Shown piece by piece: positions 15,317 to 39,790 of a stretch of DNA of 39,790 nt. The notes beneath the pieces were generated by a model. The model did no database searches and had not been told where the DNA came from. It saw only the letters and a program-made list of their open reading frames with translations. The stretch's first letter is position 1. Each line of letters starts with the position of its first letter. Origin of the DNA: a virus; IMG/VR virus record IMGVR_UViG_3300021963_000275, positions 1 to 39,790 of that record, one strand, 5' to 3'. Position numbers and translations under genes: made by a program.

Positions 15317-16826
<1,510 letters not shown>

Positions 16827-16827
<1 letters not shown>

Positions 16828-17710: not shown

Positions 17711-18718
17711 TTAAGCAATGCTTGAAGCAGACTCAATACGGAACAGTGCATCTTGACGGTACACTGCGTGTCCTAGAACACCGTACCAACCGATTGGACG
17801 CTGACGCATCAAACGGTCAACGACTGGGCCAATAACCACGTGTGGTTCTTCGGCTACAGCCTCAGCAAGTGCTTGCTGTCCACATAGGAAGGTGCGGTAT
17901 ACAGATGTGCTATCGCCATCTGCAGCCTTCTTCAAACGAGGTGACTCGATGAAGTATGCACCTTCAAACTGACCAATTTCGCCAGCCCAGATTGCATCGT
18001 TGCTCTGGTACTCGTGTGGGTTACGCCATGAAGCAGCACCAGTTTCGGCACGAAGGTCATGGGATACTTCTGGGTGAATACCACACCAGTATAGTGAACC
18101 CTTACGTCCGTTAGCCTTGTTGGTACGCAACTTAGCAACAGCACGACGGATATCAGCAGCAGAGATAATATCATCTGAAGTAATACCTGAGGTTGTTGTT
18201 GCAGTGGTTGTTCCACCACTTGCGTAGATTACGTTGGTGCCTGTTAGCAATGCATCCTGTGCTAGTTCGTCGATAGAATCAGCCATGTTGTATGCAATGA
18301 TGTTAGCAACAGCAGGGTCAACGTCTGCAAGAGACATCAACTGCAACTTCTTGCTAACTAGAGTAGCGTTACCGTATTCCCGTAGGGTTACAGTTACGAT
18401 ATCTGGTGTTGACAGAGCAACTGCTGCTGGGTCAACTTCTTCAGACAACTCAGTCTTAGCAACTGCCATGTCGTTGTAAATCTGTAGTGCTACAGATGAA
18501 CCTGGCATTGCCTGACGAGCAGGCTTCTTGTCTGCTACGGAACGTAGCAATGGGGTTGAGCGTAGTTCAAATTCAACAAGGCGGTCGTATGCCTTCTGAA
18601 CTAGACCTGCTCCATTGGATGGAGTGAAAGCACCAACGTTGTTGGCGGAAGCGTATGCGCCACCACCAAGACCACCGTTAGTTGCTGCACTGCCACCGGA
18701 TAAGCCTGTTACAGCCAT
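17711..18718 (-). CDS. major capsid protein (N4-gp56 / HK97-fold type)
   Basis: This encodes 335 residues. The segment DIVTVTLREYGNATLVSKKL, then DVDPAVANIIAYNMADSIDE, and the later LYWCGIHPEVSHDLR and IGQFEGAYFIESPRL match the N4-gp56 family of HK97-fold capsid proteins. The N-terminal ~40 residues are Gly/Ser/Ala-rich and may be an arm. It forms the icosahedral shell. It follows the scaffold-like gene, the expected order. Hairpins downstream may favour high expression of this cistron. Confidence 0.85.
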   Translation of the reverse strand: MAVTGLSGGSAATNGGLGGGAYASANNVGAFTPSNGAGLVQKAYDRLVEFELRSTPLLRSVADKKPARQAMPGSSVALQIYNDMAVAKTELSEEVDPAAVALSTPDIVTVTLREYGNATLVSKKLQLMSLADVDPAVANIIAYNMADSIDELAQDALLTGTNVIYASGGTTTATTTSGITSDDIISAADIRRAVAKLRTNKANGRKGSLYWCGIHPEVSHDLRAETGAASWRNPHEYQSNDAIWAGEIGQFEGAYFIESPRLKKAADGDSTSVYRTFLCGQQALAEAVAEEPHVVIGPVVDRLMRQRPIGWYGVLGHAVYRQDALFRIESASSIA

Positions 18719-18750: not shown

Positions 18751-19248
18751 TTATTCGGCACCCTGAGAGTAAAGGTAATTTAACAATTCCTCTGCACTCT
18801 GGGCGTTGTTGACCATGCTGAACGCGTCGTTCACATCGTCTGGAGTTAGTGCGCCTGATGCGACCATACCCATTTGTTGAAGAGCACCCATGTCCTCACG
18901 GGAAACAGGGCTTTCTTTGGCTGGTGCTGCAAACCCAAATAGTTCACCATTATCGTTTAACCATTCACTGATGGAATCCGCAGACAATTCAATGTCTCCT
19001 GGAATAAACTTGGCAACCTTTGGGTTGACACCTTTCTCATTTAAGACTTGGCTAATAGTTGACTCACGCTGGAACTTGCGCAAACTTTCCAGTTCTGCGA
19101 GTGCTTCTTTGAGTTGCTTGTCTTTCGCACGTTCTGCACGACGGACCTTCTTGAGGACATCATCACTCGAACCACGTTGTGGTTCATCTGAGTAATCCTC
19201 AAAATCCAAATCATCGTCTTCTAGCCATTCTTGATTGTTGTTGCTCAT
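18751..19248 (-). CDS. capsid scaffold-like protein
   Basis: I use the ATG at 19248 (MSNNNQEWLEDDDLDFEDYS), which has AAGGGAG about 10 bases upstream. The 165-residue protein is acidic at the N-terminus. A Lys/Glu coiled coil follows (VRRAERAKDKQLKEALAELE), then two short helical segments near the C-terminus (LTPDDVNDAFSMV, AEELLNYLYSQG). That charge pattern, its size and its place directly before the major capsid gene are typical of phage scaffolding proteins, which guide procapsid assembly and then leave. Assignment by layout; no catalytic motif. Confidence 0.7.
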   Translation of the reverse strand: MSNNNQEWLEDDDLDFEDYSDEPQRGSSDDVLKKVRRAERAKDKQLKEALAELESLRKFQRESTISQVLNEKGVNPKVAKFIPGDIELSADSISEWLNDNGELFGFAAPAKESPVSREDMGALQQMGMVASGALTPDDVNDAFSMVNNAQSAEELLNYLYSQGAE

Positions 19249-19339
19249 CGCAACCATCTCCCTTACATTGTTTGTTTGAACGTACACGGCTCACTCCGAT
19301 ACAGGGGCATATCAGTTGGTGTGTACTACCGCTCTAATA

Positions 19340-19366: not shown

Positions 19367-19372
19367 AGTTTA

Positions 19373-20488
19373 TTATATTTGTTTCTTGCGACTTAGTGAA
19401 CCAGTAGTAATGCCAGTCTGTCCACCAAATTGCGCACGTGCCTGAGACTCTAGACGCTTACGTGTCTTAGATGTCTGACCAAGTAGTGCTTCTTTTTCAA
19501 GTTCAGTTTGCAGGTCTTCAGGCTTAGTTGTGTCACCAAACATTCTTTGAGCCTGTGCAATACCAGTGCCTGAGGTACGTTGGTATTCAGCAAGTGCCTG
19601 GAATCCAGTACGTGCCTGAGCACGTGTGATGCCTTTTTCTTGCAATGCTTGAGCACCAAGTACTGAGGTAACTCCTGCTTGTCTAGCCTCAACACCAATC
19701 TCAGAACGTATGATACGGTTCTCCAGTTCATTTGGTGTTTCTTTTGTTAGCACTGCTTGAACTAGGTCTTCCTGCTTTAGGCTAGGGAACTGTTCTTTAA
19801 GTCCAGCAAGTACTTGGTCATCAAGACCTTTAACGCGATTGTATGCTTCAGTAACTCTATCACGAACTTCATCAAGAGATACGTCGTTACCCACGAGAGT
19901 TCCATAGTTCTCTACTGTACCAAGATTTGACATACCCATACGGGTCATTAGACGAGAGTACTCTTCTCTTCCTGCTTCATACTCTGCAATCTTTGGAACG
20001 TAGACTGCTTCACCAGCATCACGTCGTCTGTCAAGTTCAAAGATACCTTTGAATCTTTCATTGAACTGCGGTGGTGTTTCACCATTCTGAATCATCAAGT
20101 CAAGGATGTCATTGGTTTCAAAGCCAACAGTTAGACGTGGCTTTGCTGCTTCAAATAACTGGTTAATCCATCCATCATTTTCTGCACCAGGAAACACAGT
20201 CTTTAGTGTGCTTCTGAATACCGCACCAGCATCAGCAAGAAAGTCTGCTTGCGCTGCTGCTTTTTCTTCAGCACGAACACGTGCAGCAATCTGTGCCTCT
20301 GATTCAGTTGGGTCTGCTGCAAACGCTTCATCAACTGCTAGACCTGTATCAATAACTGGTGCTGCAGGAGTTACTGGGGCTTTCTTCTTTTTCTTTTTGT
20401 CGTCTGCTACAACTGGCTTGTTAATAACATTAGGAATTATTTTGTCTTTAGTCTGGGTCTTTGCACCAGGACCACCACGAGGAGCCAT
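19373..20488 (-). CDS. putative internal virion / structural protein (371 aa)
   Basis: This encodes 371 residues. The N-terminal ~80 residues are a Lys-rich, Pro/Ala linker-like region with a run of six Lys (DDKKKKKKAPV). The rest is mostly helical and charged (EDLVQAVLTKETPNELENRI, RMFGDTTKPEDLQTELEKEA), ending in Gly/Ser/Lys-rich sequence. No enzyme motif or membrane helix. It sits with the 313- and 1880-residue genes between protease/portal and scaffold, where podophages keep internal or ejection proteins. The role is inferred from position. Confidence 0.5.
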   Translation of the reverse strand: MAPRGGPGAKTQTKDKIIPNVINKPVVADDKKKKKKAPVTPAAPVIDTGLAVDEAFAADPTESEAQIAARVRAEEKAAAQADFLADAGAVFRSTLKTVFPGAENDGWINQLFEAAKPRLTVGFETNDILDLMIQNGETPPQFNERFKGIFELDRRRDAGEAVYVPKIAEYEAGREEYSRLMTRMGMSNLGTVENYGTLVGNDVSLDEVRDRVTEAYNRVKGLDDQVLAGLKEQFPSLKQEDLVQAVLTKETPNELENRIIRSEIGVEARQAGVTSVLGAQALQEKGITRAQARTGFQALAEYQRTSGTGIAQAQRMFGDTTKPEDLQTELEKEALLGQTSKTRKRLESQARAQFGGQTGITTGSLSRKKQI

Positions 20489-20491
20489 AAC

Positions 20492-21433
20492 TTAAAATCC
20501 CATCGAACTAATCATAGAAGTGGCAAGTTGAGCCGCTTCTCTTTTAGCACCTAATGTTGTACCAAAGCGTGGGTCATTGCGCAACATTGTTCTAAAATTA
20601 CCTAACGACATAATTCCCTTTGCATCATTAATTGCTTTTTGAATGGTGTCATCAGTTAACTTAATGTTATCTGCAACATCTTCAAATGTATCAGCCATCA
20701 TTTGGATATATGGATTAGCCAAGTCACGCACAGTAAGGCTAGCATCTTCTGCTAGACGTGGTGCAAAGTTAGCGTATAATGCCTGAGCATCTTTACGGTA
20801 CTTTGTTAGCAGGTCTTCTTGACGAGCCTTGCCGCCAGCAACATCAATTGCATTTCTTGCAATTTCACCAGCAGTTTTGAAGACACCCATGTCAGCAGAA
20901 TACTTGCTTAAAACTGCTACAGTATCTCCAACTTTTCCACCAAACTTAATGTTTGGATTGGCCTTAAGAGAATCCTTGACTACTTCTGCAACAAACTGCT
21001 TAACATAAACATCTGCATCTGCACCTTGAACGCTAGCACTTGTACTTCTACCATCACTAGATTTAGTTGAAGAACTAGAGCCATAGGCTTTTAGAAATGC
21101 ATTAACTCCTTTGAAGAACTCAGCCTTAATTTTTGCATTAGGCATAAAACCTAAGGCATCAACTAATTCCTTTTCAATAAGAGCATCTGCCGCAGCCTTA
21201 TTTAAGGTTGTTGGAAGCGTTCTTGACTTTGAAGTAGTGCCAGCACTAGATTTAGTTTTTGCGGCAGGGTCATAGGATGACATAAGTTGTGCTTTTTCAA
21301 GTTCTGTGATTTCACCAGAAGCAACCTTTTGACTAAGCCCAATGTTGTAATTTGCAGCAGCAATAAGTTCCGCATTACGTTCAGGCGTGGAACTTTCCCA
21401 TTCCCTACGATTCTCTGTTGGTCCTACAGTCAT
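20492..21433 (-). CDS. putative internal virion / structural protein (313 aa)
   Basis: This encodes 313 residues, mostly helical with Ala/Lys/Asp-rich segments (KAAADALIEKELVDALGF, AEVVKDSLKANPNIKFG) and a Ser-rich linker near residue 120. No catalytic motif, cysteine pattern or signal peptide. Its ATG shares a base with the stop of the 1880-residue gene (TAATG at 21433), so the two are probably made together. Likely part of the same internal/ejection group; no family recognised. Confidence 0.5.
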   Translation of the reverse strand: MTVGPTENRREWESSTPERNAELIAAANYNIGLSQKVASGEITELEKAQLMSSYDPAAKTKSSAGTTSKSRTLPTTLNKAAADALIEKELVDALGFMPNAKIKAEFFKGVNAFLKAYGSSSSTKSSDGRSTSASVQGADADVYVKQFVAEVVKDSLKANPNIKFGGKVGDTVAVLSKYSADMGVFKTAGEIARNAIDVAGGKARQEDLLTKYRKDAQALYANFAPRLAEDASLTVRDLANPYIQMMADTFEDVADNIKLTDDTIQKAINDAKGIMSLGNFRTMLRNDPRFGTTLGAKREAAQLATSMISSMGF

Positions 21434-24400
21434 TAGTTAAATCCATATCCAGTTTGATATTGTGTTATTGGTGTTAATGGGTCATTGTTAAAGTAGATAT
21501 CATATACTCTTTGGAATCCAGGATACTTAGTATCTAAGATTGAAACAAGATTATCTCTTATCTCTGCAATGTAAGCGTTATCAGCAGCCTCAAGTGTTGT
21601 TCTGCCACTTGCTAGTTTTGCTTCTTCAAACATTACAAGTAATTCTTGACGAGCAACAAGATACTCTTTAACTGCTTGCGGAATTGTTGAGTTCTCCCCA
21701 ACTGTCTTTGAGAAGTTATCATCAAATACAATTAGACTTGCAGCAGCAATATTCTTTTCAACACGGTTCTGGCGAATTTTCTTATCACGGGCTCCCCATA
21801 GTGGGTAGCGTTCCGCAATGGTTAATTCCCAGTTATCTTTCCATGCACCGAATTGTTCTTCGTAATCTTTGGTTCCCTTTTTAAGGCCAGCATCTCTTGC
21901 TTTTTGCTCAATAATTTCTATACCAGAATAGTAGTCCTTGTTTCCAGAACGTATCTGTAGGTCCTCGGCAGCAGAGAATGCTTCATCAGATGTGTACTTA
22001 ACCGGCTTGCCATTGATTCTGATATTAAACAGAATATCTGACACGACATCGGAACGGTCTTCAGTAAAGTCACCCTGGTTAAACAAGGCACCAATTAAAC
22101 TGGTGTCACCAACCATTGAGTCAGCACGATTTAACAACTCTTGATTAGGATAGATTCCCTGAAGCGTTGCTTCAGATGAGTTGAATCCAAACCTATTATC
22201 AGTTGTACTGTCAGTTAGTAAATTTGCTATGTACTGACCTTGTGCCTTGTCAATTTCTTCAACGTATCTTGCTGTGCCTAGGTCGTATCCAAACTGTTCG
22301 CGCAATGCGCGTAGTCTAGGCTCACCGTATACTTCGTAGTATGTCTTGTACCTGCTAGTTGATACCAGTGGTAAACCATTCGTAAATGCTTCAGCATAGA
22401 AAGACTTAGTTGCAAGTGCTAGAGATTCTTCTCTATTCTTTTCAAGAATGGCACCTGTAATAGCAATATCATCTTCCATTAGTTTGGCAAGTCGGTCTGC
22501 CTCAATTGCCCGGAATCTATTGTAGAACTTTTGTCCACCAGTTGTATCAGCAAACATACCTGCTTGCCCACCAATTGCAATCATTAATGATTCTAACGCA
22601 ACGGAACCGGAACCAAATGCACTAGCAACCTGCTGTGATGTGCTTTCGCCTCTAGTGCCTTCGTAGTAAGGTTGCACATAATTCATTAGAGTTTCTAGAT
22701 TGGCAATTCCATGCTTTTCTAGGAACTTTGATGGGTCGTAAGGCTTGCCAACCATGTTACGCATGATTGGTCCAATGAACATGTTACCAACTGGGCTACT
22801 GATTTGAGGAACACCAATTGGTTGACCCTGGAATACAACATCAAAGCCAGTTAGTGAGACCTGCATTCTTGCACTAGAATCTCCATCAAAAAACTTGTTT
22901 ATCATCCATTGTGGGTACTCAAAAAGCATTACCTTACCCTTGGTATTCCAAGGATGGCCAATCTGATTAACTACTTTGTAGTTATCCTCACGGTCATAAA
23001 CTGTTCCAAGTTTGTATGGAAGGGTGAAGTACTGTACAAAACGCGCAGCAATTTCAGGGTTACGTACTATTGTTGGTATCCAGAACTTAACAGTATTCTG
23101 CTTTGCCATGTAGAATGGTTCAATGAATCTGCTTAGTTGACCAATGTTTGTGTGACGTTCCACTGTGTATAGGCGGTCATTAACTGCTTTCAAGGCTGCT
23201 GCATGTGCAGCATTTTCAATCTCTTTTGTTCTAGTTGAAACATCTATACCTTGTTTTGCAAACTGATTTGCTAGACGTTCACCTTCAGCCTTGTACACAC
23301 CATTGTAAAACGGGTGGCGCACCAAGAAGTCTTCTGGCATTGTAGCAAGCATGTGGAATAAGTTTCCAATTACATTCTTGTACATGTTTTTTAGGCTTCT
23401 GTCAGGACCAACTTCAGCATTAGCATATACTGCTCTTCTAAAACCTAATGGTATAAGTGCTGATGACGTATCATCAAATGTCTTCTTAGGGTCAATAAGG
23501 TCTACCCTTAAGGACTTAAGTGATTCTTTGGACGGACCCTCTAGTGGAAGATACTTATGAACTTCTAGGATTTGTGTCTGGAATATATCAGACCACTGCA
23601 TTCCCTTGGCACCTTCTTTTTGGTACTCTACCAGGGTTAGGCGCATTTCGTTGCGCCAAGCAAGGGAGTCTGAACTCTTCACCCAATCAATCAGTTCTGA
23701 CATAATTTCGTCATCACTATAGTCACCCTTTAAGTAGTCTGCAATCTCTTGCTCAGACTTCTTTTGCTTTCTTAGAGCAGCGACATTTGCTTTTACATAT
23801 TTGTTGTTTGGGTCACGTTTAGTGACAGACAACTTAATGATAATTCTGCTTGCATCATCATTGTAAATAATGTTGTTAACATATTCAGAATGTGCTGCTG
23901 TCCACATGTTATCTGTAGGTTCAATTATAGTCTGTCTTTTACCAACAGAAGTTAACCCACTTAATGCTTCTCTACGAGAGTTAAGAATGGCTATTGAAGT
24001 ACTCTTAGCAGCACTAACTGTTTCATAGCGCAAAATTTTTGCCATAGCAGGACTAATGGTTGCACCACTAGAAATCTTTACACGCTTCTGTGAGAAGGCA
24101 CGAACTTTTTCTGGCTTAGCAGATGATACCTTAAGGGCACCATTGTAGTTTTTCATGATTCTCTGTCTATTAGAGATATCAAATGCCATCTTTGTTAAGT
24201 CTGAATTTTGCTTAATCAGTTCAATTGTTTCCTGAACTGCTTCTATTTGCAACTTAAGTCTAGGGCTACGACCAATTGCACTACTTGTAGCAATTTTATT
24301 TACTTCAGTTAATGCTTTATCTGCACGCTTTGTTATCTCTTCAAGGGTGTTAAATATTACCTCAGGATTACTATCAATTGCAATCTTGTATGCTGTTGCG

Positions 24401-27075
24401 TAATCTCCATCTTTCATTGCGGCAAGAAATGGACCTGAGATGGTATCGGAGCCAGGGATATTAAATATCTTCTGTCCCTCTTTTGAAATCTTTTTTGCAA
24501 CTGCTGTAGCCTGCGGATTGCCCTTGTATTTACCAATAGTGGTAAACTGCTGACGAGAAAGTTCAATAGACGAGGACAGAACATCCTGAGAAGTGTTCAT
24601 AAAGTACTCTGCTTCTTCCAGGTACCTGTCTCTAATCTTTCTTACAATGTTTTGTGGGGTATCTTCCGGAAGGGCACCAAAGTTCCTGCCAATAAGTAGT
24701 TCATTCTCTAGTTTCTGTGCGCGTGCACTGGCTAACTGTGCTTTAGCACCACCAGTACCAATTAAACCTTTGTATGCTACCCGTTGCTGTACAGTATTTG
24801 TAACATTTTGAAGTTTTGTTTCAATCATTGACGGAATATCAAAGCCAGATAGCAATGTTCTGACAGAAAGTCCTTGATGGGTAGCCATATCAGCAAAACT
24901 TGCTAGCGAACGAGCCCATCCTTCAAGCACGTTACGTGAAGTATACCGAAGTGATAGCAAAACTGCTGGCTTCCACACATAGTTCTGTAGATTTTCATAT
25001 CCATCTTTGATGGTTTCATGCCAGAACTCACCAACGGTTTCTCGTGTGCCCTGTACAAAACCAGATTTATCTGAAATACCAGTAGTTTTTGCTTTAGTAA
25101 TAATATCTTTGATGTTAGACGCTTTTACATCTGGATTATTTTTGATAACAAAAGCAATACCAGATACTAAAGTCTTTTCGTCTCCAAGTATTTCTGCTAT
25201 TTTCTTGAAATCTACACCGTAATGTACGTTAGGAACCTGTGAACTAAACTGTGGATTACCGGAAAGAATATTTTTGGCCGAAGTAATGTCATTGTCAATA
25301 ACTTCTCTACCAGCAAGTTGTGCAATTCTAGATGCTAAGGCAGTTACTGAATCTCTAACGTCTTTAACAATGTATGCGTCTCCACTTCGTGGGTCAACGT
25401 GTACATAGTTTTGGTCGTTAATAATCTCTTTTAGTTTTGCCTTCTTTGTATTGCTAATATCTCTGGCAATATACAAAAAGGTTTCTCTAAGGACCTTAAG
25501 TTGTTCTTTTGTCATGCCAGTTGTATCAACTGCGCGAACAAGAATCTTAGTTAGAGTTTCTTCTTCAAATCTTTCAAGTTCAGCAAATCTTGCAGTATCC
25601 GTCTTTAGTGCAGAAAAACCATTATACCATTTCTCTTGTTCTTTTGCAGAAAGTCCAGCCTCTTTTGCTGCAGAGATAAGACGGGCACGAAATTCCTTAT
25701 TGGCAAAGTCGCCAATTTCACCAGCGATAGTTACAGAACCTGCTGGTATTTCACGTGCTTTGTAGTTGCGACCAAAATAACCTACAGTACGAAGAACCCG
25801 AAACTGGGTATTAGACATTCCCTTAGGGTCAACTTCAGTATCTAATTTATGTAAAGCAGCAGCATCAGAAGCGTCAATTGTTGCATCGTAGTCAGTAAAC
25901 AAACCACGACCATTAACTTCGCCAGCCTTGTTTCGCAAGTACTCAATGTACTTCATGCGACTCCAGGCAAGTTCAGTACCAACTTTACCTACAATGCCAC
26001 CTTCGTCTTCTTTTGAGACAACGGTACGCAATGCGTCAAGTCTTTTTCTTGCTTCGGCTTGTTCGGCAACTAATTTTTCTTTATTGGCTTCAAGATTCTT
26101 TAATTGTCTTGGAGTAAGTTTAGGATTGTTTTGAACTGGAGTTTTTCCAGGTGTTCCCTTTAGTTGATTTTCAATAGAGGTAATCTTTCCCTTAATAGTA
26201 TTAAGGGATTCGCTTAGAATAGAATCTTGTTCTTCAATTCTGGTGATTGCCTTGTTGTCACCAAAACCTGCTTTTAGTACTTCAAAGATTTCTGACCGAC
26301 CACCGGTAGCATAGGCTTCATTTAATGCACGAGCAACCGCAGTAGGATTTTGTGAGTTTGCAACAATTGGAATTGATTCTAATTTTGTAAAATCACCAAT
26401 GTTTCTTTCAATTGCATCAACAACAACGGATGCAGAGTTACTTGCTCCTGCTTGTGCTTCATCTGCTTCTTGAACAAGTTTGGCAAGATTATCCTTACCA
26501 AATGTTACTGGGCTTTTTATTGCAGTACCACGAACACCCATTAAACCTAGGCGTGTAAATTTTGCAGCCTTACCAATTATTACAAGTGGGTCAAAGAAGA
26601 AGTTCATGGTGGCATCTACTGCACCGGAAATTCGCTCAGCAGCAGTGTTGTCCTTCTTGAAGTATCCTTCAACCTGCATCTTATCGGACCAGTTGATTTT
26701 ATCTGCACCCTGTTGACCGGGTGTAAGTTTTGCAACTAGACCTACTGAGGCCTGTCCAATTGTAACACCATTCTTAGAGCGTTCCCATGCTCGGTCCCAC
26801 GTCTGACGTGGTGTTAAACCATCTTCGCCAATATCTTTAATTGTTTGCAAGAAAGTAGACATTGGGCGAGCAACACCAACACGGTATGGCTTATCAAGTT
26901 TTTCAACATTAGTCATTGTTTCTTCAGAGGAAGCAATGTCTATAATTTTTCTTGATACGTCGCCAGTCCAGCCATCTTCATCACGAGCAGTATTTGCTAC
27001 TGTTTGAAGTGCGCGATTGGCTAGACTACCAGGTGCTTGTAGAACTTTGTCGAGAGCATTTTTATTGTCAGCCAT
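21433..27075 (-). CDS. very large (1880-aa) virion structural / probable ejection protein
   Basis: This is the longest gene, 1880 residues without a frame break. The N-terminal part contains a possible short hydrophobic segment (ISGAVDATMNFFFDPLVIIG, about 150-170). Most of the rest is helical and charged, with many coiled-coil-like stretches (about 275-345, 860-1000). A more globular region lies around 1330-1530 (NTVKFWIPTIVRNPEIAARF, MLFEYPQWMINKFFDG). I see no lysozyme, protease or nuclease motif. In podophages such giant proteins are usually internal or ejection proteins released into the host with DNA. Tape-measure function is less likely as no tail-tube genes flank it. Confidence 0.6.
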   Translation of the reverse strand: MADNKNALDKVLQAPGSLANRALQTVANTARDEDGWTGDVSRKIIDIASSEETMTNVEKLDKPYRVGVARPMSTFLQTIKDIGEDGLTPRQTWDRAWERSKNGVTIGQASVGLVAKLTPGQQGADKINWSDKMQVEGYFKKDNTAAERISGAVDATMNFFFDPLVIIGKAAKFTRLGLMGVRGTAIKSPVTFGKDNLAKLVQEADEAQAGASNSASVVVDAIERNIGDFTKLESIPIVANSQNPTAVARALNEAYATGGRSEIFEVLKAGFGDNKAITRIEEQDSILSESLNTIKGKITSIENQLKGTPGKTPVQNNPKLTPRQLKNLEANKEKLVAEQAEARKRLDALRTVVSKEDEGGIVGKVGTELAWSRMKYIEYLRNKAGEVNGRGLFTDYDATIDASDAAALHKLDTEVDPKGMSNTQFRVLRTVGYFGRNYKAREIPAGSVTIAGEIGDFANKEFRARLISAAKEAGLSAKEQEKWYNGFSALKTDTARFAELERFEEETLTKILVRAVDTTGMTKEQLKVLRETFLYIARDISNTKKAKLKEIINDQNYVHVDPRSGDAYIVKDVRDSVTALASRIAQLAGREVIDNDITSAKNILSGNPQFSSQVPNVHYGVDFKKIAEILGDEKTLVSGIAFVIKNNPDVKASNIKDIITKAKTTGISDKSGFVQGTRETVGEFWHETIKDGYENLQNYVWKPAVLLSLRYTSRNVLEGWARSLASFADMATHQGLSVRTLLSGFDIPSMIETKLQNVTNTVQQRVAYKGLIGTGGAKAQLASARAQKLENELLIGRNFGALPEDTPQNIVRKIRDRYLEEAEYFMNTSQDVLSSSIELSRQQFTTIGKYKGNPQATAVAKKISKEGQKIFNIPGSDTISGPFLAAMKDGDYATAYKIAIDSNPEVIFNTLEEITKRADKALTEVNKIATSSAIGRSPRLKLQIEAVQETIELIKQNSDLTKMAFDISNRQRIMKNYNGALKVSSAKPEKVRAFSQKRVKISSGATISPAMAKILRYETVSAAKSTSIAILNSRREALSGLTSVGKRQTIIEPTDNMWTAAHSEYVNNIIYNDDASRIIIKLSVTKRDPNNKYVKANVAALRKQKKSEQEIADYLKGDYSDDEIMSELIDWVKSSDSLAWRNEMRLTLVEYQKEGAKGMQWSDIFQTQILEVHKYLPLEGPSKESLKSLRVDLIDPKKTFDDTSSALIPLGFRRAVYANAEVGPDRSLKNMYKNVIGNLFHMLATMPEDFLVRHPFYNGVYKAEGERLANQFAKQGIDVSTRTKEIENAAHAAALKAVNDRLYTVERHTNIGQLSRFIEPFYMAKQNTVKFWIPTIVRNPEIAARFVQYFTLPYKLGTVYDREDNYKVVNQIGHPWNTKGKVMLFEYPQWMINKFFDGDSSARMQVSLTGFDVVFQGQPIGVPQISSPVGNMFIGPIMRNMVGKPYDPSKFLEKHGIANLETLMNYVQPYYEGTRGESTSQQVASAFGSGSVALESLMIAIGGQAGMFADTTGGQKFYNRFRAIEADRLAKLMEDDIAITGAILEKNREESLALATKSFYAEAFTNGLPLVSTSRYKTYYEVYGEPRLRALREQFGYDLGTARYVEEIDKAQGQYIANLLTDSTTDNRFGFNSSEATLQGIYPNQELLNRADSMVGDTSLIGALFNQGDFTEDRSDVVSDILFNIRINGKPVKYTSDEAFSAAEDLQIRSGNKDYYSGIEIIEQKARDAGLKKGTKDYEEQFGAWKDNWELTIAERYPLWGARDKKIRQNRVEKNIAAASLIVFDDNFSKTVGENSTIPQAVKEYLVARQELLVMFEEAKLASGRTTLEAADNAYIAEIRDNLVSILDTKYPGFQRVYDIYFNNDPLTPITQYQTGYGFN

Positions 27076-27242
27076 TATAGGTCGCCAACTTTCTCTCCGT
27101 TGTTAAGTTCTAATATTTGTGCAATGAATTTGTTGCGGTCATCTGAAGACTCCCAATCAACTAATCCAAATGGGAATGCTACTTCAGAATTCTCTACACC
27201 AAAAACATTAACGAATGCCGCTACGTTTTCCTGTAAATTCAT
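27075..27242 (-). CDS. 55-residue acidic hypothetical protein
   Basis: This short gene encodes 55 residues starting MNLQENVAAFVNVFGVENSE and ending LELNNGEKVGDL. It is acidic with alternating hydrophobic helices. The stop is a TAATG overlap with the 1880-residue gene, and the start lies within an ATGA overlap with the upstream gene. That perfect stitching on both sides is the main reason I call it real. Function unknown, perhaps a small factor for the giant protein. Confidence 0.6.
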   Translation of the reverse strand: MNLQENVAAFVNVFGVENSEVAFPFGLVDWESSDDRNKFIAQILELNNGEKVGDL

Positions 27243-27709
27243 ACTTGTTCTGCCGTAACCTTTACGTATTTTACTAATGCTTTGAATGGTTCTGGTGCAT
27301 CTTCTTGAGATGCCATAAGTTCTAGTGCTGGCATGTATTTCATAATCATGTCATAGTTGCCAACCATTTGACGTTCAGGAGTTCTTCCTGGACCTACAGG
27401 TAAACCAGCAGTAACTGGTTCGTTAGGTCGTTGACTTGGGTCAAACAAGCCAGTAACTGGTCCAGCAGTAGGGGCTACAGATGGAACGGCAGGGGTTGTA
27501 ACTGAAACTGGGTTACCAGCCATAGGTGCACCTGCCTGTGCTTCTTGCAGTGCCTTACGTTCGCCGTACTTGCCACCACCGGACATCTCACGCATGCCTT
27601 GAACTGCTGACTTGCTAGATGGTCCACCATCTGTACGACGTGATAATTTACCAGGTCCTGAAACTGGCGCAGGATTGGCTGGTCTACGGTACCCACCTTG
27701 TTTAGCCAT
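27239..27709 (-). CDS. Pro/Gly-rich virion-associated hypothetical protein
   Basis: This encodes 156 residues. The N-terminus (MAKQGGYRRPANPAPVSGPG, then KLSRRTDGG) is a disordered Pro/Gly/Arg segment that I have seen in many actinophage proteins encoded near portal genes. The middle is Pro/Val/Thr-rich, and the last ~45 residues are helical (YDMIMKYMPALELMASQEDA). Probably a head-associated accessory protein. Overlaps the Ntn-hydrolase-like gene by 8 bases. No catalytic motif. Confidence 0.55.
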   Translation of the reverse strand: MAKQGGYRRPANPAPVSGPGKLSRRTDGGPSSKSAVQGMREMSGGGKYGERKALQEAQAGAPMAGNPVSVTTPAVPSVAPTAGPVTGLFDPSQRPNEPVTAGLPVGPGRTPERQMVGNYDMIMKYMPALELMASQEDAPEPFKALVKYVKVTAEQV

Positions 27710-28223
27710 TTTGCTTTCCTCGTTTCACAATCTGTATTTTACCACCACTATTAACATCAAACTTAATAGCAGTACGCATTGCTTGTCTTATTGTGGCACC
27801 AGCATGGTATGCACCTAGTGCAAGTTCTCCACCAGTACCCATTGCATAAATTCCTGTATCGGTACGTAGTACCGAGTAATCTTCAGCAATGTAGTAAATC
27901 TTATTATCTAAACCAACGAGGAATGAGAATCCATCATCTTTTTCTAGAGTAGTCCCAGTAGAGTCATGTGCTCTCTTTATCTCTGGGATAACCTTGCTAA
28001 CCATGAAACGGTATCCGTCAGTTCCATCGTATCTAGGTAGTTTCCATCCGTATTGGACAACATCACAAAGTCTCGCATTTCCTGCACCAGCAATTACATA
28101 ATCACCATCTTCGGTAATCTTTCTTACATCACTGTGCATGTAGGGGCGTTCATTTGCAGTGATTTGACTATCTGCTGCAAATACGAAACCGTTATCGTAT
28201 TGTACGGCAAGAATTGTTGTCAT
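27702..28223 (-). CDS. Ntn-hydrolase (proteasome/HslV-like) protein, candidate prohead protease
   Basis: This encodes 173 residues. After the initiator Met the chain starts TTILAVQYDNGFVFAADSQI. The Thr at position 2, Asp18 in AADSQ and Lys35 in RKI fit the Thr1/Asp17/Lys33 catalytic set of proteasome beta subunits and HslV if Met is removed. AGAGNARL (45-52) fits the oxyanion-loop region. Such enzymes hydrolyse peptide bonds using the N-terminal Thr. The gene lies directly after the portal gene, the usual place for a prohead maturation protease, and no other protease gene is visible. The fold assignment is good; activity and substrate are inference. Confidence 0.7.
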   Translation of the reverse strand: MTTILAVQYDNGFVFAADSQITANERPYMHSDVRKITEDGDYVIAGAGNARLCDVVQYGWKLPRYDGTDGYRFMVSKVIPEIKRAHDSTGTTLEKDDGFSFLVGLDNKIYYIAEDYSVLRTDTGIYAMGTGGELALGAYHAGATIRQAMRTAIKFDVNSGGKIQIVKRGKQNG

Positions 28224-28225
28224 GG

Positions 28226-30007
28226 TTATCCACCAAGTTGTGACAAGATTCCAGCCAAGTCCATAGGCGGTTGCCCCCCAGCAGGACCTGCAGGCGGAAC
28301 TTGTTCCTCGGTCGGAGGCATAGGTTCTTCTGCTGGGGCAGCACCCTGACCCATAGACTGAGCAACCAATTGTTCTGGTGTCATCTCTGCTGGTTCTTGT
28401 GGTTCTTCGGGCTTTGTTTCTGGTTCTGGTTTTTCAAATACCTTAACAACTGCCTCTTCGATTGCATTACCTTTACGGCGTAGTTCAATGACTTTTGCAA
28501 TCTGTTCCACAATACCAGATGGGTCTTGTCCTTGCATAGCCATCTGTGGGATTGCTTGTGCTAAAGACGCTAGCGATGCTGATAATGAATCACGCATTCG
28601 CTCTATATCAATGCGCTCTTGTTCACCTGAAACATTCATGCTCCATGGTAACTCTCGCATGATAAAATCACGGGATACTAGGTTGGCCTGCAAAGCCTGT
28701 AGTGAGAAGATAAGTGCACGTGATGGGTCAAGTCCAGCCATAAGGCCATAACGAACCTGAATTGTGTAGTCACCAGCAATGTCTTTTGCTGAGTCATACT
28801 TGAATTCATACGGTGCACCATTGAAAGTTCCGCGTTGCTTCTTTTCGCCTGGAAATAACTTCTCATCCATCTCAAAGCAAAGAGCAATAACTTCTTCAAG
28901 TGCTTCACCGATAATCATTTGCATAGCCTTGATTTGGGAATCAAAGCCACCCATAAGGGCCTGAACACCAGAGCCAGTAATAACACTAGCATCCATGTTT
29001 CCTGTGCGACCTTCAGGGTAACGTGAACCCATACGCATTTCTGTTTCTAGAATCTGCTGTTCGGTAAATGCACCGGTAGGTAGTTCTAGTCCTACACGGC
29101 GTACGCCTGCTGGGTTGTTAGTACGCAAGACTGCATCAGGACCAAATGCAAATTCTTGTAAATCTTGGGGAACGACAATAGGAGCCTGTACGGATTTCTC
29201 GGCTGCTTCCATTGCCAGAAGGGAAAAGCGTGCTCGTGCAATCTGCACCCATAGCACGTCATCAAACTGTCCACGTGGGTCATCAACGTCAATGCCTGGT
29301 CTACGAGGCACAACAATTGCTAACTTACCTAGTGGATTCTTTGCTTTACGCAATACCAATGAGTCGCGCTGTGGCAGGAACATGACGATTTGGTCTTTAT
29401 CCTGATAGTGCAATACATCTAGTTCGGTATTAAGGTCTTGGTTTTGGTAACCAAGTTTACCAAGGATACGTGTTTCATATTCAGGGAAATCTACAATGAG
29501 TTCCCGAATAGTCTTTAGGTATCGCTTAGTGTATGAAACACATTTTCCATAGCGGTCATACTCTGGGTAAGCACCCATAGGGTTTTCTATGCGAATGCGT
29601 GGCATACGAGCCTCAAAGTCAGGCTCTACAACAATGGGCATGAAAGCATATGTGAATATCCAGTCTGCACCAGTGTACATCTGAGTTTGTAACCCAGAAT
29701 TCTGAACGTAGTTATTAGCAATCATGCTTCGCTTATCCGAAGCCTTGCGAGCGGAATCGCTCGTGCTATTAACAGTTGAGCAGTTAAACGACGGTAGAGG
29801 GGCTAGTGTCTCTGCTAGGTCTCGCGCAACAACGTCAACGAAGTTAGCAATCATTGGCTTGGAGATTCCCTCAGGGAACATGTCCGGAGCCACAGACTCC
29901 ATGTAGCCACGGCGTACAGCGGTAATGTCGCGCATTCTCTGGTCACGGGCACTGTAGCGGTCTTGCAGCGACAGCACCTTGTCAGTGATTTGTTCGATAC
30001 TTAGCAT
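28226..30007 (-). CDS. portal protein
   Basis: This encodes 593 residues between terminase and the Ntn-hydrolase gene. The N-terminal half has the typical portal beginning (IEQITDKVLSLQDRYSARDQ, MIANFVDVVARDLAETLAPL) and a wing region with PRIRIENPMGAYPEYDRYGK. The centre has long helices and the C-terminal ~90 residues are Pro/Glu-rich and probably disordered (PEPETKPEEPQEPAEMTPEQ). Portals form the dodecameric DNA channel of the capsid vertex and dock terminase. Assignment rests on order and length and on the N-terminal pattern. Confidence 0.85.
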   Translation of the reverse strand: MLSIEQITDKVLSLQDRYSARDQRMRDITAVRRGYMESVAPDMFPEGISKPMIANFVDVVARDLAETLAPLPSFNCSTVNSTSDSARKASDKRSMIANNYVQNSGLQTQMYTGADWIFTYAFMPIVVEPDFEARMPRIRIENPMGAYPEYDRYGKCVSYTKRYLKTIRELIVDFPEYETRILGKLGYQNQDLNTELDVLHYQDKDQIVMFLPQRDSLVLRKAKNPLGKLAIVVPRRPGIDVDDPRGQFDDVLWVQIARARFSLLAMEAAEKSVQAPIVVPQDLQEFAFGPDAVLRTNNPAGVRRVGLELPTGAFTEQQILETEMRMGSRYPEGRTGNMDASVITGSGVQALMGGFDSQIKAMQMIIGEALEEVIALCFEMDEKLFPGEKKQRGTFNGAPYEFKYDSAKDIAGDYTIQVRYGLMAGLDPSRALIFSLQALQANLVSRDFIMRELPWSMNVSGEQERIDIERMRDSLSASLASLAQAIPQMAMQGQDPSGIVEQIAKVIELRRKGNAIEEAVVKVFEKPEPETKPEEPQEPAEMTPEQLVAQSMGQGAAPAEEPMPPTEEQVPPAGPAGGQPPMDLAGILSQLGG

Positions 30008-30014
30008 TATAGCC

Positions 30015-31901
30015 CTAAATGTAGATTATAGATTGTTCTGCAGCAAGTTCGTCTAAGTCAAAGACAATGCGTTGCTCTTCATTTCGACGTGTAGCGTACC
30101 TGTTGTAGGTATGGTAGATACGGCTTCCTGATTGCTGAACAAGTTCTTTTGCTCGCAACTCACAAAACCATAAAGCCATAACGCAGTCGGTCTTATTCTT
30201 GGTATCTGGCTTCCAGGTAATTAACTGGTTAACCAGAGCCTTGATGTGTTCATTAGTATTATCTGGTAATTCTATAAGATTATCGCCTTGGTGCTTTCCT
30301 TCTCGCACCGAGCCAAATAATCCAGACATACCAGCAACGCCAAAGTTTGTGTCCCACTTGTTCTTACCAGTAAATTGCTCACTGAATCGGACACCCCGAT
30401 TGGCAAGCCACATGCGGAGGTCTTCATCCAGCGCGAAGGCTTTTTGGAACGCATTAATTTCAATGCGGATTTCCATCGGGTTATACTTGGTAACCCATTC
30501 TTCAATGAGGTTACGAATCTTTGACGGTGTAGGTTCTGACATGTTAAACACATCTAGAACCATACGTTGCCCTGTTTGCCGTTCTACGGCATAGGCAACC
30601 ATAGCAGAGTTACCTACCATGGCAGGGTCAAATCCTAGGATAGTTACCCATTGTCCATCTCGTGGATGTCCTGGAGTACCTGGCTTGATAGTACCAGGCT
30701 TGCGCATGCGGTTGACACACGCGTTAACAGAGATGAGCGGGAAAATTGCGTCTTCTTCCACATCCTGTTGCTGGTATACAAGAGCCCAAGTAGAAGGGTT
30801 AACTTCACTGCGGCGGTGGAATAGTCTCTTGCCGTCCCACTTCGGGAAGTATCCATCTTCATCCTGTACTAAAAGTTCTGCATCGTATTGGGGGTCTGCC
30901 CCATCCCAGACACGGTCTGAGCGTGGCCAGAGGGTTACCCAGTCTTCTGGCTTATCAGCGTATTCAAGAACCGCTGGCATAGCCAGGTAGGTGAATGGGG
31001 ACTTATCGCCAGACCAGTTATCTGGGTTACGTATCTCTTTGTATAGGTCAATAGAGGATACACGGGTACCAGCAATAACTAGGGTACCGGTAGCACCCAC
31101 ACGGGTGATAACCATCTTCTGTAGCCAGTTAAGTTGCTTTTCCCATTCATGGGCATTCGTTGTGGTGATAACGTCATCAAGGATGATGAGGTCGGCACGA
31201 GTACCGTAAATCTGCTGACCCATACCAATAGCCTGTACGGTAGGGTCTTTCTCGCCAGAGTCGCGCTCTAGGTAGATTCGGTCCTGAGTCCACTGGTCTG
31301 CGGTGGCTTGGTAGCCGCCAGCAGGCCCATAGACGGATTGTAACTTAGCCCAGGCTGGTTCAGTCAGGCGTTGCTTAATAGAGAACAAGAACTCCTTGGC
31401 GCGAGCCTGAGTCTGGGACACTACCACAATACGGATATTTGGGTCCATTGCTATTCGGTAGGCAGCATAGCCTACTGTTAGAACTGTGGACTTAGCGTGT
31501 TCTGGGGGTACGTTAATAAGCAAGCGGCGACGGTTGCCAGGCTCAAAGGTCATAGACTCATGAATCCAAGAAGGCTCATTACCCTCTAGAACGTCAATCC
31601 AAGACTGGTGGTGAGGAAATACCTCAGAGTTCAGGAACTCCTTGGAGAACGTGGCGTAGTCGATATTCTTGCCAGAGGCTAGGGTCTCGCCAAATAGTTT
31701 ATTGGATTCGGTCCGCGCGGCTTCTAGGCGCGAGGCAAATTGTCCGTCTCGGAGCCATGTCTTTAGGGCTGGCAGTTTACGGCCAGTTAGACCGAGGGCA
31801 GTATGTTCATCAATTCCAGAGGCTACGGACGCTAGGAACGCAGCCTGGTCCTGTTCGCGTCTTACCGTGAAGTGATGGTTTTCGCCACTCTTCGCAGACA
31901 T
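30015..31901 (-). CDS. terL: terminase large subunit
   Basis: This encodes 628 residues. The first ~65 residues include an HTH-like segment (GIDEHTALGLTGRKLPALKT), perhaps replacing a separate small subunit. The ATPase has a Walker A variant VPPEHAKST (131-139), Walker B LIILDDV (238-244) and the coupling motif VIAGTR (275-280). The nuclease half begins ILGFDPAMVG and carries further acidic residues (EIRIEINAF). It packages DNA into procapsids and cuts concatemers. ACGAGGT precedes the ATG at 31901. It is the first gene of the minus-strand late operon. No separate small terminase was recognised nearby. Confidence 0.9.
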   Translation of the reverse strand: MSAKSGENHHFTVRREQDQAAFLASVASGIDEHTALGLTGRKLPALKTWLRDGQFASRLEAARTESNKLFGETLASGKNIDYATFSKEFLNSEVFPHHQSWIDVLEGNEPSWIHESMTFEPGNRRRLLINVPPEHAKSTVLTVGYAAYRIAMDPNIRIVVVSQTQARAKEFLFSIKQRLTEPAWAKLQSVYGPAGGYQATADQWTQDRIYLERDSGEKDPTVQAIGMGQQIYGTRADLIILDDVITTTNAHEWEKQLNWLQKMVITRVGATGTLVIAGTRVSSIDLYKEIRNPDNWSGDKSPFTYLAMPAVLEYADKPEDWVTLWPRSDRVWDGADPQYDAELLVQDEDGYFPKWDGKRLFHRRSEVNPSTWALVYQQQDVEEDAIFPLISVNACVNRMRKPGTIKPGTPGHPRDGQWVTILGFDPAMVGNSAMVAYAVERQTGQRMVLDVFNMSEPTPSKIRNLIEEWVTKYNPMEIRIEINAFQKAFALDEDLRMWLANRGVRFSEQFTGKNKWDTNFGVAGMSGLFGSVREGKHQGDNLIELPDNTNEHIKALVNQLITWKPDTKNKTDCVMALWFCELRAKELVQQSGSRIYHTYNRYATRRNEEQRIVFDLDELAAEQSIIYI

Positions 31902-34012: not shown

Positions 34013-34193
34013 GGCACACATGACCGCACTATATTGGTATCAGACTGAACTTGATAAGTTAATCAAGCAAGGCTATGCTAGTGGTGAAGCACACAAGATA
34101 CTCATGGATAGGCTTGCCGACATGGATAGTATCGAGTGGATGGAACCAAACAATAACCTAACAGTACTGTTAGATAACGAGGAGGCACTCTGA
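34005..34193 (+). CDS. small helical hypothetical protein
   Basis: I use the ATG at 34005 because the frame upstream of it is a shadow of the previous gene. The 62-residue protein (MAKAHMTALYWYQTELDKLI, GEAHKILMDRLADMDSIEWM) is helical and acidic. It encodes palindrome copy 5 near its end (LTVLLDN) and its stop overlaps the amidoligase start as TGATG. No family recognised; coupling suggests it is made with the amidoligase. Confidence 0.5.
   Translation: MAKAHMTALYWYQTELDKLIKQGYASGEAHKILMDRLADMDSIEWMEPNNNLTVLLDNEEAL
34158..34173. promoter_or_regulatory. operator-like palindrome, copy 5
   Basis: Perfect CTAACAGTACTGTTAG near the end of the gene at 34005-34193. It lies about 20 bases before the amidoligase ATG and just before its GAGGAGG ribosome binding site (34179-34185). 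Confidence 0.65.
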
Positions 34194-35392
34194 TGAGTGA
34201 GATAGATGCAATGTCACTAGACATTGAGACAGATGAACGACAGGTGGTGTGTTGTTATGGTACATGTACTAATACCATAGACATGGACAATGACACATAC
34301 GCACTAGATAGTGCAGAAGATGCGTACTGTGAGGCTCACATCTTTGTATGTAACTGGTGCGATTGCTCATTCCCAGACACCGAAGTACATGATAACTTCT
34401 CTGGTTACTGCCACCCATGTGGTAACAGAATGACTTCATGTGACAGGTGTGGTCGGGTTGAGCATGAGAACGACATGTACAACGTTAGTAGTGATGACTG
34501 GTGTCATTCTTGTTACGAAGATTACTCTAGACATTGCCCTCGTTGTGATTATAGTTACGACCCTAGAAATGGTAGGTGTTGTGGCGGTAGTCATGATGTT
34601 GAGGACTATAGTTACAAACCGTATCCACAATTCCATTGGGTAGAGAATGACCCTGATGCTGACCGACGTGTATTCATGGGCTTCGAGTTAGAGGTAGAGT
34701 CTGACGGCGAAACCTATGACGGTCCGGAACTGGTGCGGTCACATCTAAGTGACCTTGTTTACTTCAAGGAGGACGGCTCACTTAATGATGGCTTCGAGAT
34801 AGTCACACACCCAATGACCCTTGCCTATGCACACAACATGGACTGGGCATGGACTCAAGGACTACTGGACAAGGGCTATCGCTCATGGGATAGGAGTACC
34901 TGTGGCTTACATGTTCACGTTGATAGACGTGGCTTCAATGGTAGGTTGCATCAGTACTCATTCACCCTGCTACTCATGCGTAACAAGGCTTTGTCTTACC
35001 TAATTGCAGGTAGACAGGGCAACTCGTACGCATCCTTTGACAAGAATGTACGCACAGAAATACCCAAGCATCTAAAGGGTCAAGACAACTGTGTCCAACG
35101 ATATTCTGCTGTCAATGTACTACCAACAGCCACCCTTGAAGTGCGTATGTTCAGGGGTTCACTAAAGAAAGAACGCATACTCGCTGCACTTGAGTATGTG
35201 CATAGTGCCGTAGAGTATTCACGCGGTGCTAGGTCAGGTGTTGGTGCTGAGGAATATCTAACAGCACCTGCATTTATCCAATGGTTACGAGGCAACAAGG
35301 CTTTGTATCCAAACCTATTAAGTTATATAAATCAATCAGTCGAGTTCGGCTTTAGCGAGAAGTCCTATACTTCTCAGAATAGTGGAGAGTAA
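34193..35392 (+). CDS. amidoligase-family (COOH-NH2 ligase) protein with N-terminal zinc ribbons
   Basis: This encodes 399 residues. The first ~135 residues contain at least five paired-cysteine motifs (CNWC, CHPC, CDRC, CHSC, CPRC), probably two or more treble-clef zinc domains. The rest has the ordered amidoligase signature, related to glutamine-synthetase-like ligases: GFELEVE (163-169), KEDGSL (192-197), GFEIVTHP (200-207), CGLHVHVDR (237-245), RYSAVNV (303-309) and LEVRMFRGS (315-323). This fold joins a carboxyl to an amine using ATP. The next gene encodes a class-II glutamine amidotransferase, which can deliver ammonia, so the pair may amidate or ligate a peptide or wall component. Substrate unknown. 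Confidence 0.75.
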   Translation: MSEIDAMSLDIETDERQVVCCYGTCTNTIDMDNDTYALDSAEDAYCEAHIFVCNWCDCSFPDTEVHDNFSGYCHPCGNRMTSCDRCGRVEHENDMYNVSSDDWCHSCYEDYSRHCPRCDYSYDPRNGRCCGGSHDVEDYSYKPYPQFHWVENDPDADRRVFMGFELEVESDGETYDGPELVRSHLSDLVYFKEDGSLNDGFEIVTHPMTLAYAHNMDWAWTQGLLDKGYRSWDRSTCGLHVHVDRRGFNGRLHQYSFTLLLMRNKALSYLIAGRQGNSYASFDKNVRTEIPKHLKGQDNCVQRYSAVNVLPTATLEVRMFRGSLKKERILAALEYVHSAVEYSRGARSGVGAEEYLTAPAFIQWLRGNKALYPNLLSYINQSVEFGFSEKSYTSQNSGE

Positions 35393-35394
35393 TT

Positions 35395-36291
35395 ATGTGT
35401 ATGCTATGTGTATCCCTTCCAGGGTCACGTCCAACACGCGAGCAATTAGAGATTGCTTGCTATAACAACAGCGATGGCTTCGGCTATGCAGTACATCACG
35501 GCGACCACATTGTGGCTGGTCGAGGTATGCTAGTAGATGTCACTATTGACAGGTTCTTTGCTGAGTTAGATAAGAATCCTGATGCTATCGGTATGTTCCA
35601 CGCACGTCTTACCACACATGGTACGACACACGTTGAGAACAATCACCCATTCAGGGTTGACGGTCGCAAAGACATTGTGTTAGGTCACAATGGTATGCTT
35701 CCGGTCACGCTCAAACCTGGTGACAAACGCTCAGATACCCGTGTGTTTGCTGAAGATTTGCTACCTAACATGGGTGTAGATGTGCTTGATGACCCTAAAT
35801 ACTTCAAGCAACTAGAGGACTGGGCTAGAGGTAGCAAGATTGCTATCTTAAGTACCGCACCTGAACTCAAGCAGGAAGTGTACATTCTCAATGAGAAGGA
35901 CGGTCACTGGGATGACGGTGTGTGGTGGTCTAACACCTCGTACAAGTCACGCAGTTACTGGGCCACTAGTTACACTGGTAGTTACTACAATGGCTATGCA
36001 TCTAAAGAAGACTATGACTTCTTTGAGAATGACAAGCACCTATTGCTAGCATCAGATGAGTTGATAGATGCTAACGGTACTGTTAGAACTATCTACGATG
36101 TGTGCTACCATTGCTACTCACAACTGCGAGAAGATGATTACGAAGAGGGTGCTTGCACTTCGTGCAATACATGTATAGACTGTAACGAACACATGGCACA
36201 CTGCATGTGTTACAACCCTAACAGTACTGTTAGAAGTAACGACTACTGGTGGAAGCAAGAACAACTACAACTAGAGAAATTGGATTGGTAA
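35395..36291 (+). CDS. class-II glutamine amidotransferase with C-terminal zinc-cluster
   Basis: This encodes 298 residues. The catalytic Cys is residue 2 (MCMLC), exposed when Met is removed. NSDGFGYA (25-32), FHARLTTHG (68-76) and NNHPF (82-86) form the glutamine site, and GHNGM (97-101) gives the oxyanion hole. These are typical of Ntn-type GATases that release ammonia from glutamine. From about 237 there is a Cys-rich zinc-like domain (C237, C240, C254, C257, C260, C263, C270, C272). It follows the amidoligase after only 2 bases. Palindromes 6 and 7 lie inside the gene near this cysteine domain. Confidence 0.8.
   Translation: MCMLCVSLPGSRPTREQLEIACYNNSDGFGYAVHHGDHIVAGRGMLVDVTIDRFFAELDKNPDAIGMFHARLTTHGTTHVENNHPFRVDGRKDIVLGHNGMLPVTLKPGDKRSDTRVFAEDLLPNMGVDVLDDPKYFKQLEDWARGSKIAILSTAPELKQEVYILNEKDGHWDDGVWWSNTSYKSRSYWATSYTGSYYNGYASKEDYDFFENDKHLLLASDELIDANGTVRTIYDVCYHCYSQLREDDYEEGACTSCNTCIDCNEHMAHCMCYNPNSTVRSNDYWWKQEQLQLEKLDW
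36071..36086. promoter_or_regulatory. operator-like palindrome, copy 7 variant (CTAACGGTACTGTTAG)
   Basis: One base differs from the main palindrome (G for A). It lies inside the amidotransferase gene and encodes ANGTVR, just before the zinc-cluster domain. Confidence 0.5.
36218..36233. promoter_or_regulatory. operator-like palindrome, copy 6
   Basis: Perfect CTAACAGTACTGTTAG inside the amidotransferase gene, encoding PNSTVR just after the zinc-cluster cysteines, about 60 bases before the next gene. Confidence 0.65.
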
Positions 36292-36292
36292 C

Positions 36293-36595
36293 ATGACTGA
36301 GACTATTAAGATTACATATGAGGTTGAGTACTTCTATCATGAGATACTCAAAGAAATGCTGGACAGTGGAGAGTATGGGCTAGGTCAGCACCCAATAACG
36401 GACGAGGCTATTGTATACAATGCACTAGATAAGTTTGTTACTATGAGTGGTGGTATCCCTATGATTCCATCAGCCCTTGACCAGGCAGGTGTACTCACAG
36501 TGGAAGATGATAGAGGAGAACTTCTCTACCAATTTCCAGGGTACAACACACTAGCACAGAGAGAAGACGACCATGATACGCGACTATTTCAATGA
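36293..36595 (+). CDS. hypothetical protein downstream of the amidotransferase
   Basis: This encodes 100 residues, acidic (MTETIKITYEVEYFYHEILK, DRGELLYQFPGYNTLAQRED), without cysteines or membrane segments. It begins one base after the previous stop and overlaps the WhiB-like gene. Possibly part of the amidoligase module by position only. Confidence 0.55.
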   Translation: MTETIKITYEVEYFYHEILKEMLDSGEYGLGQHPITDEAIVYNALDKFVTMSGGIPMIPSALDQAGVLTVEDDRGELLYQFPGYNTLAQREDDHDTRLFQ

Positions 36596-37073
36596 GGTTA
36601 TGATTGACTTCAGGTCAATCGTTGCTGAATCAAAGATAGATTTGTTTGAGTTCCGTTCACGGGATGGTGGCAACCCCACCTCTATGCCAGTCAGGAATCG
36701 TGAAAAGATGAGTGACTTAGTACTTGAACTACCTGACTTTGAGAACGCATCATGTAAGGGCATAGGTCATCAGGCTTTCTATGATGATGGCTTAGAGGTT
36801 GAGGCTGCGATAGACCAAGACGATACAATCTGGTCATCAAACAAACCGGTACAGCATGCATACCTAAGGCGTATGTGCCTGTCATGTCCTGTCGTACAGG
36901 AATGTAGGGAGTGGGGCATTAAGCGTGAGAGGTATGGGTTCTGGGGTGGCATGACCGCTACTGAACGTGAGTCAGAACGTATCATACGTGGCATCAGAGT
37001 TGATGAGATAGACTATCAAGTACACATAGGTAAGGTAGAAGTAAACATGGGAGGTAATGAAGATGAGTTATAG
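36573..37073 (+). CDS. WhiB-family-like iron-sulphur transcription factor
   Basis: This encodes 166 residues. The conserved part has C61 (NASCKGIG), then MCLSCPVVQEC (C102, C105, C111) and GFWGG (122-126), then an Arg-rich helix (TATERESERI). This is the WhiB pattern: four cysteines for a [4Fe-4S] cluster and the Trp-Gly loop that binds sigma factor. Phage WhiB proteins can redirect host transcription and are restricted to actinobacterial systems. The N-terminal ~45 residues are an extension not usual for the family. The start at 36573 has AGAGAGAAG upstream; an internal ATG at 36708 is an alternative. It supports an actinobacterial host. Confidence 0.8.
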   Translation: MIRDYFNEVMIDFRSIVAESKIDLFEFRSRDGGNPTSMPVRNREKMSDLVLELPDFENASCKGIGHQAFYDDGLEVEAAIDQDDTIWSSNKPVQHAYLRRMCLSCPVVQECREWGIKRERYGFWGGMTATERESERIIRGIRVDEIDYQVHIGKVEVNMGGNEDEL

Positions 37074-39463: not shown

Positions 39464-39790
39464 ATGAAGACACTAATGAGAGCAGTAGGTCGCCCCGATA
39501 TAGGGGGCGAGCCTATGCCACCAGTGTTTCGTGCATTTGATGATAACCAAATCATCTTCCGTAGGGCAGAGGTCAGCATGATTGCAGGTCAGCCAGGGGC
39601 AGGTAAATCTACACTTGCCCTTGCGCTGGCTCTGCGTATGCAGGCACCAACTCTGTACCTATCAGCGGATACCAATGCACACACTATGGCAATGAGATTG
39701 TACTCAATGATTACTGGTAATTCACAATCAGAATCAGAGAAGATAATCTCCGAGAATCCAGAGCAAGCCAAGCAAGCACTAGCCCAAGCA
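39464..39790 (+). CDS. RecA/DnaB-like P-loop ATPase (5' part only)
   Basis: The gene starts at the ATG at 39464 with TAGGAG upstream and runs off the window; 109 codons are visible. Walker A is GQPGAGKST (42-50), preceded by strands and followed by LALALALRMQAPTLYLSADT, as in RecA-fold ATPases such as DnaB-type helicases and phage recombinases. It probably belongs with the split Cas4 gene and the primase at the other end of the window. Whether it is a helicase or recombinase cannot be decided from this part. Confidence 0.65.
   Translation, partial: MKTLMRAVGRPDIGGEPMPPVFRAFDDNQIIFRRAEVSMIAGQPGAGKSTLALALALRMQAPTLYLSADTNAHTMAMRLYSMITGNSQSESEKIISENPEQAKQALAQA

Follow-up and report, generated by a model that had tools for sequence, protein, structure and literature searches.

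The window, by which we mean the whole 39,790-nucleotide stretch of viral DNA analysed here, appears to cover most of a podovirus-like phage genome. Its gene order runs from terminase through portal, an HslV/proteasome-like peptidase, the small conserved protein phrog_8200, an 1880-aa protein and two further proteins to a scaffold-like protein and a phrog_1357 capsid protein (Table 1). The peptidase gene is tightly packed among its neighbours, its ATG lying 2 bases past the stop codon of portal and the last 8 bases of its 3′-end being shared with the next gene, phrog_8200; phrog_8200 itself is conserved in Beephvirinae and still follows portal in relatives without the peptidase. The WhiB-like protein and the relatives among Streptomyces phages point to a host that is probably actinobacterial.

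Table 1. Features of the window that bear on the peptidase gene and its setting.
Feature	Position	Strand	Basis
HslV/proteasome-like threonine peptidase	27702..28223	-	173 aa; Pfam, PHROG, AlphaFold2, VIA-align, invariant active site, dN/dS 0.07
Terminase large subunit	30015..31901	-	phrog_38, 1.5e-64
Portal protein, ending 2 bases before the peptidase ATG	28226..30007	-	phrog_104, 3.9e-28
Small conserved protein phrog_8200	27239..27709	-	5.8e-21; overlaps 3′-end of the peptidase gene
Giant 1880-aa protein, phrog_10618	21433..27075	-	3.1e-58
Scaffold-like acidic protein	18751..19251	-	phrog_7813; weak match to head scaffolding phrog_3760
Major capsid protein, no delta/propeptide domain	17711..18718	-	phrog_1357, 3.3e-82; N-terminal comparison
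WhiB-like protein	36573..37073	+	direct reading of the ORF: CxxCxxxxxC and GFWGG motifs
RecA/DnaB-like ATPase, truncated at the end of the window	39464..39790	+	only AAA-type match; not an HslU-type unfoldase

Several other features of this genome may deserve attention in their own right. Several contigs with 95-99% identical terminases have 1880-aa proteins of only about 42-60% identity, as for a fast-evolving or swapped gene of the virion operon, and long collagen-like Gly-Pro-Thr repeats followed by a tail-collar-like stretch occupy 15316-16827 (minus strand). The primase is split across two plus-strand ORFs, 494-874 and 711-1328, which share more than 140 bases and of which the second has a Toprim domain; it is split likewise in the diverged phage L053 (11572-11934 and 11789-12454, plus strand). 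The start-to-start offset is 217 bases (+1 frame) in both, which could reflect either programmed frameshifting or a pair of overlapping genes. Two adjacent plus-strand ORFs (34193-35392 and 35395-36291) have weak matches to Amidoligase_2 and class-II glutamine amidotransferases, and the product of the second, with M-C at its N-terminus, is a candidate for a further Ntn-type enzyme of this phage.

The peptidase ORF, whose N-terminus reads M-TTILAVQYDNGFVFAADSQ, is matched by Pfam PF00227 (Proteasome) at an E-value of 6.4e-6, above the gathering score, and across the whole protein by PHROG 1040 (‘peptidase HslV family’; 2.3e-34); used as a profile, it in turn matches solved HslV and BPH, down to 1.2e-13. 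Matches by phmmer to designed dTor repeat proteins, confined to residues 134-167, were repeat-inflated and were discarded. An AlphaFold2 model built with 23 sequences (mean pLDDT 88.5, pTM 0.85) has the Ntn alpha-beta-beta-alpha fold with both helices predicted (residues 50-58 and 70-88), and VIA-align superposes it over nearly its full length on BPH (Z 18.4; 163 residues aligned, rmsd 2.8 Å, 22% identity), HslV (18.0), Anbu (17.6) and 20S beta subunits (17.5). These values are tied, and therefore the fold picks out no single subfamily. An earlier note on this DNA had read the gene as an HslV-like Ntn threonine peptidase and proposed structure prediction and comparison with HslV as a check; sequence, predicted fold and active-site conservation all bear that reading out. 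Profile scans of bacterial genome contigs confirmed no relatives. We conclude that the gene is a real phage relative of bacterial HslV and the proteasome.

The active site is preserved throughout the family. Among 23 homologues, mostly from metagenomic contigs and 26-94% identical to the window peptidase, mature Thr1 (residue 2), Asp17 (residue 18), the Lys33-equivalent (residue 35, Lys34 after Met removal) and the oxyanion glycine (Gly47-equivalent) are invariant, as they are in all 12 sequences of a smaller alignment; the earlier note had thus correctly named Thr1, Asp17 and a lysine near 34 as the catalytic set. The equivalents of Ser129 and Ser169 are Ser or Thr in every one of the 23, and that of Asp166 is present in 20. 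In the model, residue 2 superposes on residue 1 of solved HslV and BPH chains (VIA-align). All the full-length homologues collected begin with M/V-TT, and in most of them a stop codon precedes the start by no more than about a dozen codons. A propeptide is therefore absent, and removal of the first methionine, presumably by the host methionine aminopeptidase, would expose Thr1. Median dN/dS of the gene in the window clade is about 0.07, the second lowest among nine genes, with only terminase lower (0.05) and portal (0.10), scaffold-like (0.15) and capsid (0.18) genes higher, so the protein is very probably functional and under strong constraint. Judged from these residues and from the modelled fold, the phage enzyme is probably active, with Thr1, Asp17, the Lys33-equivalent and the Gly47-equivalent oxyanion hole predicted to hydrolyse peptide bonds.

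It is conceivable that such an Ntn enzyme is not a degradative peptidase but performs another chemistry, for instance as a connectase-like protein ligase or as a processing enzyme of narrow scope: connectase, a ligase, belongs to this superfamily, many of whose homologues have no known partners (PMC8665760). The best structural matches here are the barrel proteases BPH and HslV, and the predicted model shows nothing like the long helical insert that connectase has between its strands 3 and 4, both of which make this alternative very unlikely.

As to a partner, AAA_2/HslU profiles found no match in the window or in six related phage records. The PF00004 AAA match at 39578-39754 was rejected as an unfoldase, since to judge from its sequence it belongs to a RecA/DnaB-like ATPase, about 260 aa long in relatives. 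With neither a propeptide nor an HslU-like partner of phage origin, the peptidase would act alone in a ring, as BPH appears to, or would borrow an unfoldase from the host. In Aeromonas phage 2L372D (NC_048769) two adjacent genes at 19042-20495 are annotated ‘peptidase HslV family’, and a mixed ring is possible there.

The place of the gene beside portal is not a peculiarity of one contig. The peptidase occupies the slot after portal in some 20 close IMG/VR contigs, and it does so too in ct2KA10 (OX376640 and OX376641; hslV 37%, portal 54-56% identity) and in G010 (hslV 36%, portal 54-57%). Retention of the portal–phrog_8200 slot in at least three diverged groups (the window clade, ct2KA10 and G010; hslV 36-38%, portal 54-57%) suggests more than a random cassette. 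The gene nonetheless has a history that differs from that of portal in five records: in L014, L017 and L018 its dS is 0.87-0.90 as against 0.21-0.22 for the adjacent portal, with bootstrap ranges that do not overlap, while in L019 and L020 the pattern is reversed, the peptidase genes being closer to that of the window (90% and 84% identity) than the portals (66-67%). Exchange between lineages would fit these patterns.

More distant relatives uncouple the peptidase from the head genes. Portal and capsid proteins in 29 Streptomyces phage records are 44-47% and 51-56% identical, respectively, to those of the window, and the Streptomyces podoviruses FlowerPower, Stella and Abafar (Beephvirinae) keep the terminase, portal, phrog_8200, scaffold-like and capsid genes with just small ORFs between portal and phrog_8200. 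A sensitive profile search found no peptidase relative in the complete FlowerPower genome, and PHROG 1040 had no match in the whole records of FlowerPower, Stella and Abafar, with positive controls. Abafar makes plaques and normal 60-nm podoviral particles (PMC11536984). A related 43.4-kb phage, G001 (terminase 46%, portal 41-42%, scaffold-like 37% and capsid 37-40% identity), has the portal–phrog_8200–giant protein–scaffold–capsid order of the window with no peptidase between portal and phrog_8200; it carries the gene at 31372-31881, about 15 kb from portal and among replication genes (by eye, a RecA-like ATPase, a VRR-nuclease-like protein, a WhiB-like protein and a primase). On this comparison of gene content, a head of this type can be built without the peptidase, and the linkage of the gene to the head module is non-obligatory.

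These relatives bear directly on the earlier note's central proposal, that the peptidase is the prohead protease of the phage, recruited to cleave the scaffold or the capsid N-terminus during head maturation. The gene does adjoin portal, with which it is likely to be co-translated, and the slot is conserved in the three diverged groups; the rest of the position claimed for it, between portal and the other head genes, holds less well, as the scaffold-like and capsid genes lie about 9 kb downstream, past the 1880-aa gene. Profile searches of the window detected no S14, S49 or S78 protease, in keeping with the note's remark that no other protease gene is seen (in the Peptidase_S77 search the controls gave no match). 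A gene missing from FlowerPower, Stella and Abafar and moved in G001 is neither required for the head module nor bound to travel with it, however, and elsewhere the family co-exists with head maturation proteases. In Microbacterium phage WaterT the peptidase gene lies upstream of terminase, and portal is followed directly by the gene of a distinct head maturation protease (phrog_15531, 1.5e-23); DSL-LC01 has the peptidase beside a WhiB gene, with a Peptidase_S78 domain elsewhere; and the jumbo phage pSal-SNUABM-04 is reported to encode a pair of HslV genes alongside separate prohead proteases, with no HslU (PMC7823757).

The capsid protein itself argues in the same direction. It has no cleaved scaffold or delta domain of the HK97 kind, the scaffold-like protein being encoded by a separate gene, and its N-terminal arm is variable (about 10-40 residues: about 11 in FlowerPower, about 20 in ct2KA10 and 36 in the window) ahead of a conserved core. 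Such an N-terminus makes processing of the HK97 kind unlikely, while some trimming would be compatible with it. The window clade does have a longer, Gly-rich arm that is missing in Beephvirinae, a point in favour of the proposal, but the capsids of ct2KA10 and G010, both of which carry hslV, are without a long arm. Taken with the absences, the relocation and the co-occurring head proteases, this leaves the capsid-maturation claim unsupported, and we regard it as unlikely. The ct2KA10 capsid protein (L026 17567-18766; L027 6711-7910) also differs in length from that of the window, at 399 aa as against 335 aa, with an insertion near its C-terminal part.

A broader version of this idea, to which we give similarly little credence, is that the clade recruited an accessory Ntn peptidase into its late operon to process some virion protein, be it the scaffold, the Gly-rich capsid arm, the portal tail or the 1880-aa protein. 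Were this so, maturation by a threonine-type enzyme would be new for a tailed phage, and we know of no Ntn-type enzyme for capsid or ejection-protein maturation in any phage. Alternatively, the peptidase may be virion-associated, packaged with or near portal or ejection proteins and entering the cell along with the DNA, there to attack host proteins as infection starts. In three groups its gene lies in the late operon beside portal and the gene for the 1880-aa protein, which would suit such a role. We nevertheless think this improbable, as the gene lies outside the virion operon in G001, DSL-LC01, Arthrobacter phage Hum25 and P22-like MW202475, and in the last two is far from the head genes.

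Related phages build the same head without the gene or carry it elsewhere, and therefore an accessory protease, not a capsid maturase, is the most likely explanation. We consider it probable that the gene encodes an accessory threonine peptidase of the HslV/BPH type that chiefly serves, within an infected and probably actinobacterial cell, to turn over or trim proteins of the host or the phage. In the window clade it is probably expressed late and translationally coupled to portal. Phage proteasome homologues are widespread, and our searches of the literature turned up no experimental work on an HslV-like protein from a phage or on what any of these homologues does. With the same head module, the peptidase gene is found in the late operon, among replication genes or not at all, a natural comparison that makes its function testable.

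Among known systems, the caudoviral prohead proteases (S78, S14/S49-like and S77) share with this peptidase the operon slot after portal, but their fold and chemistry are unrelated to it and the head module of sister phages works without the peptidase gene. HslV (ClpQ) shares its fold (Z about 18) and active-site frame; the phage differs in having no HslU and in an Asp-x-x-Ser-Gly-Gly motif like that of proteasome beta subunits. BPH, the beta-proteobacterial proteasome homologue (5ovs, 5ovt, 5ovu), is the best structural match, tied with HslV, and to our knowledge has no dedicated unfoldase; it is a cellular protein about 20% identical to the phage peptidase, the latter being known from sequence and model. 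PHROG 1040 is matched directly, though its annotated members that we examined lie outside head operons. Closest in kind are PPH and AAH, proteasome homologues of phages to which their 2021 description gave no function (Fuchs, Alva and Lupas, 2021; PMC8665760), and which resemble the window peptidase in being phage-borne, compact subunits with Thr1, Asp17 and Lys33, no propeptide and no linked AAA+ partner. PPH is about 140 residues long and lacks helix H2 (PMC8665760), whereas the window peptidase, with 173 residues and both helices predicted, falls outside that definition. No actinobacteria-specific phages were found with AAH (sequence cluster OC.661151; PMC8665760), whereas the window lineage, compared with AAH by its published description, looks actinophage-like. 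Phage-borne threonine peptidases are thus a known kind of which this is a further member, a small extension by which the family reaches actinophage-like viruses with a fixed operon position.
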